Shown: in pieces, positions 44,064 to 46,206 of the stretch
How the letters are laid out: every line of letters begins with the position of its first letter
Position numbering within the stretch: the first letter of the stretch is position 1
NCBI GenBank assembly: GCA_027307045.1
Contig: DAHUXR010000021.1
Span: 1-49,245, forward strand
Direction: 5' to 3'
Origin: Acidobacteriaceae bacterium
GTDB taxonomy: Bacteria > Acidobacteriota > Terriglobia > Terriglobales > Acidobacteriaceae
Length of the DNA: 49,245 nt
Made by a program: the position numbers and the translations under genes
Notes under the pieces: model-generated
Seen by the model: the letters and a program-made list of their open reading frames with translations, nothing else
The model's database searches: none
What the model was told of the DNA's origin: nothing

Positions 44064-44813
44064 ATGAGATCGGACATGAAGAAAGTTGTGGTCGAGCGGC
44101 CGCGCGGACAGTCCTCTGTGCCGAACCGCAAGTTCGGCGCGCGTCTGCCGTATGTCCCAGACCACGATTATGACGAGCAGCCAAAGCGCGTGGGCATTTC
44201 TGCCTCATACCGCGACTACGGCTACTCTGCGAAATGGTTTACTGACGTGCTTGGCCCGCTCAGGCGGTTCCTGGAGAAAAACGTCGGTCGGCCATGGAAC
44301 GATGTTTATAGCGAAATGTGCGCCAGCCTGGACAAGCGCAAAGCAACGGGCAAGCACATCTTTGATCATGCAATGGACATGGTTGATACCAACTGTTTCA
44401 TCGGCGCGAGCGGCAAAGTTTTCCGCTTGTGTTGGGGAGCTGAACGCGAGGTTGAAGGCCTGTATGTCCATGCGCAAACTGGAATACTCTGCCGCGCTGT
44501 GCCGCCGAACAAACGTGAGCTGAAACGCCGGCGATTGCTGGCGGAAGAGGTCACATGGCTCAACATCAATGACGAGTCAGGATACCGGAAGCATGAAGGT
44601 ATCTGGTATCTCGTGAGACTAGAACGGGTGTTTGCAGGATGGACGCGCAGTAAGAAGCCCGTCATGGTTCGTGACATCTTTCTCAAAAAGGATGTACCGC
44701 TGGATCGCGGCTGGTATTCCGTGGCCATTGCAAAGAAACAGTGCAATCGCGACGAGTTGCAGCATCTGCGCTACATGCTGCAAAATCGCGAACGACAAAT
44801 CAGAAACATGTAA
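44064..44813 (+). CDS. Conserved-looking protein of unknown function, upstream of the tRNA-like RNA and rtcB
   Basis: A 249-residue soluble, basic protein that I cannot assign. The N-terminal 45 residues are Arg/Lys/Pro-rich. Then LGPLRRFLEKNVGRPWNDVYSE and KHIFDHAMDMVDTN form a recognisable block. A Cys/His-poor beta-rich middle part (GLYVHAQTGILCRAVP) and a basic C-terminal helix (LQHLRYMLQNRERQIRNM) follow. The charge pattern would suit RNA binding, but this is inference. The GAAGGAG is too close to the ATG at 44064, so the Met four codons downstream may be the true start. The stop is 24 bp before the tRNA-like RNA. Confidence 0.7.
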   Translation: MRSDMKKVVVERPRGQSSVPNRKFGARLPYVPDHDYDEQPKRVGISASYRDYGYSAKWFTDVLGPLRRFLEKNVGRPWNDVYSEMCASLDKRKATGKHIFDHAMDMVDTNCFIGASGKVFRLCWGAEREVEGLYVHAQTGILCRAVPPNKRELKRRRLLAEEVTWLNINDESGYRKHEGIWYLVRLERVFAGWTRSKKPVMVRDIFLKKDVPLDRGWYSVAIAKKQCNRDELQHLRYMLQNRERQIRNM

Positions 44814-44837
44814 CCAGTTTGCCGGTGGTGAAGATTA

Positions 44838-44929
44838 CAGCTACTTCGGTGGGTATAGCTCAAATAGAGATAGAGCATCCCGGTTATGCCGGGACGACGA
44901 AGGTTCGAGGCCTTCTACCCAGTAAGCTG
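44838..44929 (+). ncRNA. tRNA-like RNA with extended acceptor stem, between the 249-aa gene and rtcB
   Basis: A 71-nt cloverleaf-like core (44851-44921). The acceptor is GGGTA/TACCC (five pairs, not seven), then T8-A9 and the D stem GCTC/GAGC. The anticodon stem is TCCCG/CGGGA with loop GTTATGC, T33-like U in place. The T arm is GAAGG-TTCGAGG-CCTTC with TTCGA loop consensus. It lacks the D-loop GG, lacks CCA, and has a possible extra G-C pair closing the anticodon loop. The stem continues below as CAGCTACT with AGT-A-AGCTG (eight pairs, one bulged A and a five-base internal bulge). This is not a decoding tRNA. Y-RNA/YrlA-type RNAs are known tRNA mimics in rtcB operons. It ends 47 bp before the rtcB start. 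Confidence 0.75.
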
Positions 44930-44976
44930 CAATCGGCTTGTTCCCCGGCAAATGTTATTAACAAAAAGGAAAACTG

Positions 44977-46206
44977 ATGTCAGACAACACTTACAACGTA
45001 TACAAGCCCAGCAACGGCGTACCCATCAAGGCGTGGACGAAGGGCGTTCCTGTGGAGGAAGCTGCGCAGAAGCAGTTGATGAACGTGGCGCAGCTTCCGT
45101 TCATCTATAAGTGGGTTGCCGCCATGCCGGACGTGCACTGGGGCATTGGCGCCACCGTGGGCAGCGTCATTCCCACCAGGGGCGCAATCATCCCCGCTGC
45201 AGTGGGCGTGGATATTGGCTGCGGCATGATGGCGGTAAAGACCAGCCTGAACGCCTCGCACCTGCCGGACAATTTGCACGGCATCCGTACGGCGATCGAG
45301 AAAGCGGTCCCGCACGGACGTACCGACAACGGCGGCAAGAACGATCGCGGCGCGTGGGCCAACGCTCCCGCTTCTACCGTGGACACCTGGGCCACTTTAA
45401 ACGATCGCTATGAAGAGATCGTAAAGAAGTATCCCAAGCTGAACCATTCGCAGCGCATCAATCATCTGGGCACGCTGGGCACGGGCAACCACTTTATTGA
45501 GGTCTGTCTGGATGAAGCGCAGAACGTCTGGTTCATGCTGCACTCGGGATCGCGTGGCGTGGGCAATCGCTTCGGCACGTTTTTCATCGAACTGGCCAAG
45601 GAAGACATGCGCAAGTGGATGATCAATTTGCCTGACGCTGATCTGGCCTACCTGCCGCACGGCACGGAGCACTTCAATGATTATGTTGAAGCCGTGCACT
45701 GGGCGCAGGAGTATGCCCTGTTGAACCGCCGGTTGATGATGGCCAATATTGTTGCGGCCGTCGTCGGCTGCGGTGAAGTGCCTGCTTTCCAGGCGCATGT
45801 TGAAGCGGTGAACTGCCACCACAACTATGTGACCTGGGAGCACCACTACGGAGAGAACGTCCTCATCACCCGCAAAGGCGCAGTGCGCGCCCGTGAAGGC
45901 GATATGGGCATCATTCCCGGCAGCATGGGCGCGCGTTCGTACATTGTGCGCGGCAAGGGCAATCCGGAAAGCTTCAACTCCTGCAGCCACGGCGCAGGTC
46001 GCGCCATGTCCCGCACGGAGGCCAAGCGCCGCTACACCGTGGCGGACCACATCGCCGCTACGCAGGGCGTGGAGTGCCGCAAGGATGCAGACGTGATCGA
46101 CGAGACTCCAATGGCGTATAAATCCATTGACGCCGTAATGGAAGCGCAGAAGGATCTTGTCGAAATCGTTCACACCTTGAGGCAGGTGGTGTGCGTGAAG
46201 GGGTGA
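44977..46206 (+). CDS. rtcB: RNA-splicing ligase RtcB
   Basis: Joins RNA ends bearing 2',3'-cyclic phosphate or 3'-phosphate to 5'-OH ends, using GTP and Mn2+, in tRNA splicing and RNA repair. The 409-residue length matches E. coli RtcB (408). Motifs: GVDIGCGMMAVKT (Mn ligand Cys82), GTGNHFIEVCLDE, LHSGSRGVGNRFG, NCHHNYVTWEHH, GNPESFNSCSHGAGRAMSR (guanylated His in SHGAGR) and a C-terminal Lys (VVCVKG) at the GTP site. RBS is AAGGAAAACTG before ATG. The upstream 249-aa gene and tRNA-like RNA lie on the same strand. No RtcR regulator or archease is seen. Confidence 0.97.
   Translation: MSDNTYNVYKPSNGVPIKAWTKGVPVEEAAQKQLMNVAQLPFIYKWVAAMPDVHWGIGATVGSVIPTRGAIIPAAVGVDIGCGMMAVKTSLNASHLPDNLHGIRTAIEKAVPHGRTDNGGKNDRGAWANAPASTVDTWATLNDRYEEIVKKYPKLNHSQRINHLGTLGTGNHFIEVCLDEAQNVWFMLHSGSRGVGNRFGTFFIELAKEDMRKWMINLPDADLAYLPHGTEHFNDYVEAVHWAQEYALLNRRLMMANIVAAVVGCGEVPAFQAHVEAVNCHHNYVTWEHHYGENVLITRKGAVRAREGDMGIIPGSMGARSYIVRGKGNPESFNSCSHGAGRAMSRTEAKRRYTVADHIAATQGVECRKDADVIDETPMAYKSIDAVMEAQKDLVEIVHTLRQVVCVKG

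Follow-up and report, generated by a model that had tools for sequence, protein, structure and literature searches.

What kind of RNA lies between an unnamed open reading frame (ORF) of 249 amino acids and the RNA ligase gene rtcB in an Acidobacteriaceae bacterium? The DNA concerned, called the window below, is the whole analysed stretch of 49,245 nucleotides (assembly GCA_027307045.1, contig DAHUXR010000021.1, positions 1 to 49,245, forward strand). The original prediction, made from the letters of this DNA, placed the 249-aa ORF (its product is called p249 here), a tRNA-like fold and rtcB in a single orientation, and the ORF analysis, ARAGORN, Rfam and PF01139 agree with that arrangement. 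The three elements are co-oriented and closely spaced, with 6 bp between the p249 stop and the RNA and 26 bp between the RNA and the rtcB ATG; both reading frames are open over their full length, and the PF01139 match of this rtcB is the sole one in the genome at E<=0.001. It is proposed, with moderate confidence, that positions 44820-44950 encode a Ro60-type Y RNA, a tRNA mimic tethered to Ro60, in a tight run with p249 and RtcB that constitutes an RNA-repair module probably derived from phages.

The RNA that had been predicted is present and is larger than first drawn, with pairing that continues below the original boundaries via GATT/AATC and an outer helix. In the minimum free energy fold the outer helix has six pairs, then a bulged U and another two pairs; above it come the inner helix (GATT/AATC and CAGCU/AGCUG, then a bulge and three further pairs) and, on top, the cloverleaf. 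The five-pair acceptor and eight-pair lower stem described earlier appear in this fold, whereas the centroid fold and the Rfam alignment give a six-pair acceptor, with a mismatch at pair one in the latter. The folding energy is moderately unusual for the whole RNA (z -2.84, 2 of 200 shuffles as good) and lower still, relative to shuffles, for a longer stretch (z -3.53, 0 of 200). When the intergenic stretch was compared at the DNA level with 100 genomes of the family, two genomes besides the window matched, over 33 bases at the 5' arm; each of them (G056 and G028) has an RNA with that 5' arm and a matching 3' arm upstream of rtcB, at about 1.1 kb and 25 bp, respectively.

A covariance model, R1, was built from 46 stems (45 from Ro60 contexts plus the window's own) that come from 23 sources, namely the window and 22 of 26 Ro60 contexts; two false stems (L054 7504 and L062 6036) were removed before the underlying alignment, A1. 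The window RNA, itself among the model's 46 sequences, scores 44.3 bits (E 3.2e-7). The stem finder demanded five outer pairs, which inflates the outer-helix counts, and therefore the case for the stem rests on the inner helix, whose pairing played no part in selection. There the true arm partners reach a mean of -12.84 kcal/mol, compared with -8.08 (standard deviation 0.37) for re-dealt arms, and none of 10000 re-deals attains the true value; among 46 candidates the true partner has a median rank of 3, and for the window's 5' arm it is placed first. The original prediction had made its reading depend on covariation in homologous loci, and by this re-deal test the Y stem passes. The window RNA carries the conserved end-to-end stem with a bulge near its base by which Y RNAs are recognized. 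A scan of 347 genomes of the phylum with R1, whose first pass scores 16 candidates per genome, gave two matches in this genome, missed the window's copy and is too insensitive for counting.

Proteins with the TROVE domain of Ro60 were found in 26 of 120 family genomes, this one included (a single TROVE match, on contig C314), and most of the 26 contexts contain multiple RNAs that share these arms. The R1 model gives a match at E<=0.01 in 22 of these contexts, from which it was largely built; at this genome's own Ro60 locus five Y RNAs lie alongside. Among 34 viral loci chosen on the stem pattern alone, 32 encode a Ro60 homologue, and no pair of the 34 shares 1 kb at 95% identity; these contigs are from IMG/VR and may include host DNA. 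The re-deal test and the viral loci are both free of the circularity of the model, and on these sequence comparisons the window stem is a Ro60-linked Y stem, belonging to a stem family with the genomic link to Ro60/Rsr expected of Y RNAs. Binding of the window RNA by Ro60 is predicted. The comparison with bacterial Y RNAs made in the original prediction was right, and the match is stronger than was proposed; its statement that Rsr is absent holds at the locus and not for the genome, given the protein on C314.

Some Ro60 contexts also contain a longer class of Y RNA of 160-178 nt beside Ro60 (L040 10303-10126, L053 10083-9924, L065 10004-9843 and L044 10416-10257). ARAGORN tRNA calls at or near the 5' arms of Y RNAs (L040 9596-9664; also L053, L058, L059, L063 and L065) are, judged by eye, probably artefacts. 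At L041 (G082:C17) a TROVE protein lies among ten tRNAs and genes that look phage-like by eye, and R1 finds no Y stem there.

Coordinates of the elements of the locus in the window
Feature	Positions	Strand	Basis or remark
p249 ORF, 249 aa	44064..44813	+	unnamed family seen in large viral contigs
Whole Y RNA (stem and tRNA-like head), 131 nt	44820..44950	+	R1 match; minimum free energy fold
Y stem 5' arm: outer helix, bulged U at 44826, inner-helix GATT and CAGCT	44820..44847	+	alignment A1, fold
tRNA-like head: acceptor, D arm, anticodon arm (UAU), T arm, acceptor	44849..44923	+	ARAGORN, Rfam tRNA
Y stem 3' arm, ends in TTCCCCGGCA	44924..44950	+	alignment A1, inner-helix pairing test, fold
rtcB, RNA ligase	44977..46206	+	PF01139, E 4e-131

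The head enclosed by this stem is called tRNA-Ile(TAT) by ARAGORN (44848-44924) and matches the Rfam tRNA model with 42.1 bits (E 1.2e-5 in the window). ARAGORN made no tRNA call on 5000 dinucleotide shuffles of the insert, so the cloverleaf call is not due to chance. The T-loop TTCGA, the T8-A9 and the absence of a D-loop GG and of CCA, all noted earlier, match the sequence. The head is joined to the stem through its acceptor end, its arms follow in plain order, and its anticodon arm carries U33 and a purine at 37. A search of the insert against phage DNA gave two weak matches only.

The closest known system is YrlA (RF02553) of the rsr-yrl-rtcBA operons, with which the window RNA shares a long end-to-end stem, a tRNA-like head with T and D arms, and a neighbourhood that includes rtcB and, among relatives, Ro60. 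According to the available portions of the literature, YrlA binds Rsr and has D, T and acceptor arms as its listed tRNA-like parts (PMC8394870), and Y RNA 6CU1 is described as a circularly permuted tRNA (PMC11472068). The YrlA head is described as permuted and composed of D, T and acceptor arms, whereas that of the window has the plain order, an anticodon arm and attachment through the acceptor; the Rfam YrlA model does not match the window RNA up to E 10, the circularly permuted head of YrlA sensu stricto is not found in it, and rsr does not lie within the operon, the TROVE gene being on C314. Stem and linkage make the window RNA a Y RNA, whereas the Rfam model and the order of its head place it outside YrlA sensu stricto. 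The Ro60-linked Y RNAs of relatives and of viral contigs share the stem and differ in tRNA-like parts that are partial or permuted. A plain-order head in a Y RNA was not encountered in the searched literature, which comprises portions of papers and leaves out key ones on bacterial Y RNAs.

How unusual this head is can be judged from other Y RNAs. The exact stem pattern with a tRNA-sized insert occurs at 34 places in 24 of 200 family genomes; the window's insert is the one that ARAGORN calls unrotated, and the other 33 are called once rotated (16) or neither way (17). A wider set of 171 distinct Y RNAs (108 genomic and 63 viral, found with the outer-pair requirement and forming 165 groups at 0.9 similarity) gave the same picture, with the window insert alone called a tRNA as it stands. 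A word search found a T-like box before a D-like box in 45 of them, the reverse in four (the window and three without a tRNA call), a T-like box only in 22, a D-like box only in 13 and neither in 87. Judged by eye, the permuted heads correspond to a tRNA opened at the junction of the D and anticodon arms or in the D loop, while in the viral Y RNAs of L203 and L204 the stem lies between the acceptor and the D arm. The Y RNA of G056 (L015) matches the Rfam YrlA model weakly (38.9 bits, against a gathering score of 69), and its T arm precedes its D arm.

Many of these RNAs present something that resembles an anticodon arm. A hairpin of at least 4 pairs with a 7-nt loop, starting 1-2 nt past the 5' arm, is present in 53 of the 171 Y RNAs (50 of 165 without near-copies), compared with 5.1 on average and at most 11 in 200 shuffles; the window is not counted among the 53, because its anticodon arm sits elsewhere. 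U33 is found in 44 of the hairpins and a purine at 37 in 49, and 18 of the 53 loops reproduce exactly an anticodon loop found in a tRNA of this genome, where letter shuffles give 0.24 on average and 2 at most. On these hairpin, nucleotide and loop counts, about a third of these Y RNAs appear to mimic an anticodon arm. Enrichment of GUN anticodons is not significant (13 of 44, with 9.5 expected and a maximum of 15). The counts suggest that mimicry often covers the decoding end of tRNA, an end not listed for YrlA in the available portion of PMC8394870.

The p249 protein suggests a phage origin. It has no Pfam, NCBIfam or PHROG match, and 32 members of its family have none in Pfam or PHROG. The family is rare in bacteria (2 of the 200 genomes searched in the family Acidobacteriaceae and 5 of 297 in the phylum, with this genome in both counts), and viral contigs provide 42 loci, of which 24 are on contigs longer than 100 kb; one match lies in a Myxococcus phage. 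Short-peptide searches gave no match in genome_contigs or viral_contigs when started from the window p249 alone, and none in plasmids. At least one tRNA is present at 26 of the 42 viral loci, and the 30 records searched whole for tRNAs (12 of the 42 fell outside this search and that for PF01139) all carry tRNAs, from 1 to 55. The stretches around p249 in the 30 records hold 182 tRNAs compared with 41.5 under an even spread over the same records, with observed counts by ARAGORN and record totals by Rfam; nine of the 30 stretches have no tRNA. The structure predicted for p249 from 32 sequences reaches a mean predicted local distance difference test score (pLDDT) of 81.5, compared with a poor 38.6 from one sequence; a fold search with the model in PDB and BFVD gave no match at E<=0.001, and a search of PDB sequences none below E 0.04.

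Three viral contigs (L203, L204 and L207) have Y RNAs about 0.4 kb past p249 and Ro60 beyond them, and the gap behind p249 could accommodate a small ORF; these contigs are 88-98% alike in that region and are therefore counted as one lineage. In another contig (L209) p249 starts 0.3 kb past RtcB. Because the p249 family sits near Y RNAs and Ro60 or near RtcB in these viral contigs, p249, the Y RNA and RtcB are probably one RNA-repair module of phage origin. The suggestion that the 249-aa protein is a new partner thereby gains some support, from one viral lineage for Y RNAs and Ro60 and from one contig for RtcB. Members of its family lie near rtcB at the window, at L209 and in a congener (L003 5958-7169), in which the rtcB that comes after the p249 homologue has lost a large internal part; in the stretch examined at four other bacterial loci there is no rtcB. 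A phage setting for such modules is consistent with the available portions of several reports, in which jumbo phages carry RNA-repair sets of RtcB, Rnl and TROVE (PMC7824862), a jumbo Vibrio phage has a Ro60-related ORF (PMC7765460), and Rsr and Y RNAs are suggested in a Listeria phage, with mycobacteriophage Y RNAs cited (PMC12282133). The jumbo-phage sets share RtcB, TROVE and tRNAs in large phages with the present case, to which the window adds p249, outside the Pfam, NCBIfam and PHROG families.

The neighbourhoods of rtcB in the family give the Y stem a further context. At E<=1e-100, rtcB was found in 16 of 200 family genomes, in 18 copies, eight of which have an R1 match at E<=0.01 within the stretch examined (up to 1.5 kb on each side); three of the eight stems were in R1, and one matches partially (22.8 bits). 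Four of the eight belong to Y RNAs of 67-69 nt that lie among 12 or 13 tRNAs upstream of rtcB, and the Y RNA of G028 ends 25 bp before the gene, similar to the window. Seven of the 17 other rtcB loci (L108, L109, L110, L111, L114, L115 and L116) have 6 to 13 tRNAs upstream, the nearest at 42-120 bp from rtcB in five of them, at 718 bp in L116 and at 972 bp in L110. These tRNA genes share the cloverleaf and the position with the window head, which differs in being enclosed by a Y stem and in its degenerate core.

According to the proposed mechanism, an RNA-repair module assembled in phages from p249, a Y RNA, Ro60 or RtcB, and tRNAs would have been retained here with RtcB. The three elements would be co-transcribed and the RNA processed, its stem would serve as the binding site for the Ro60 protein encoded elsewhere in the genome, and the head with its anticodon arm could be presented to RtcB, PNPase, modification enzymes and anticodon nucleases. 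The head might compete with, or report on, damaged tRNAs while RtcB reseals cut RNA and, if it were itself cut, could be held by its stem for resealing. The original prediction named substrate, decoy or sensor for RtcB as possible roles of the RNA. An anticodon-armed head would fit, by analogy, a proposal for the tRNA-like domain of Salmonella YrlA, which the available part of PMC7790460 describes as a possible competitive inhibitor of an anticodon nuclease. A wider reading, which we put forward tentatively and regard as rather doubtful, is that these Y RNAs are a general tRNA display platform whose anticodon arms, of many identities, serve as decoys or sensors for anticodon nucleases when phage and host are in conflict, p249 and RtcB being the partners for repair. 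Equally tentative is its structural corollary, that one Ro60-binding stem can be inserted at four joints, namely the D loop, the junction of D arm and anticodon arm, the junction of acceptor and D arm, and the acceptor end. A plain-order head with an anticodon arm, beside RtcB and a protein family seen in large phages, allows a direct test of whether Y RNAs mimic tRNAs towards nucleases and ligases.

Could the head simply be a working tRNA-Ile(UAU) gene that fell between p249 and rtcB by chance, with an incidental flanking stem? The ARAGORN and Rfam calls and the tRNAs upstream of rtcB at seven other loci speak for it, yet the intact core of a functional tRNA (G18G19 and the first acceptor pair) is missing, with no D-loop GG, a mismatched first acceptor pair and, in the Rfam alignment, a discriminator U. 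The head has the third-lowest score among the genome's 42 tRNA matches and no close parent among its 40 tRNAs, the best of which reaches only 53 identities in 82 columns; the flanks are the covarying Y stem with its Ro60 link; and the genome already has three CAT tRNAs, one of which, we presume, could read AUA after lysidine modification. A tRNA gene is thus improbable. We also consider unlikely a cis-acting role in the leader of the rtcB mRNA, an option raised in the original prediction; the head would then sense tRNA status or a tRNA-binding protein and control the translation of RtcB. The co-oriented position 26 bp ahead of the rtcB start, and the G028 Y RNA likewise 25 bp ahead of rtcB, would suit a leader, but the stem is not bound to that position, since it is also found next to Ro60, amid tRNAs roughly 1 kb away from rtcB and in viral stretches that lack the gene. 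A little less unlikely, though still not favoured, is a sacrificial substrate, the loop of which would be cut by anticodon nucleases, with the stem keeping the halves together and RtcB resealing them, so that the RNA soaks up or records nuclease activity. The U33 and the purine at 37 of the head, the anticodon-arm-like hairpins of other Y RNAs and the 18 loops shared with real tRNAs are what such a substrate would be expected to show; against it, the available part of PMC7790460 reports that no fragments of Salmonella YrlA, an RNA with D, T and acceptor arms (PMC8394870), were detected, and the GUN anticodons that were counted lack significant enrichment.

Several observations weigh against a Ro60-tethered tRNA mimic in a module with p249 and RtcB. 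No Ro60 gene lies at the locus, no promoter-like site was detected there, and the degeneracy of the head as a tRNA counts here as well. The window's 3' arm ranks its own 5' arm 8th of 46, and for four of the 46 stems the true partner is ranked 22nd or worse. A pattern joining the Y 5' arm to a plain-order tRNA 5' half finds the window and nothing in genome_contigs (84,980 species) or viral_contigs, although the pattern is exact, so that variants are missed, and genome_contigs may leave out the window's own genome. Neither the DNA search of family genomes nor the exact patterns nor the 171 Y RNAs yielded a relative with the same plain-order head, and the head may therefore be a one-off or a decaying copy. 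Among bacteria, p249 is near rtcB solely at the window and beside the congener's internally deleted gene, and at the four other bacterial p249 loci the stretch examined lacks both rtcB and a Y stem. PF01139 occurs in just 2 of the 30 p249 viral records searched, and 38 of the 42 viral loci lack both RtcB and a strong Ro60 match over the stretch examined, with a weak Ro60-like match at one more. Upstream of the closest relative of the window's rtcB (G170, L107, 90%), inspection by eye suggests a Y 5' arm with its inner helix, the 3' arm that would close it being absent. Some of these points suit the reading that the RNA is inactive, a decaying remnant of a phage tRNA-array island: p249 is of a phage-type family, the D-loop GG is lost, the congener's p249 adjoins a deleted rtcB, and an arm that looks like a remnant precedes the nearest relative of rtcB. 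This too we hold to be unlikely; the rtcB and p249 frames are intact, and the outer and inner helices still pair. The Ro60-type Y RNA beside p249 and RtcB remains the preferred reading.

A separate observation concerns other RNAs in the Ro60 contexts: Acido-Lenti-1 RNAs (RF01687) were found in two of them, at L055 (9392-9437 and 11387-11432) and at L046 (1435-1480).

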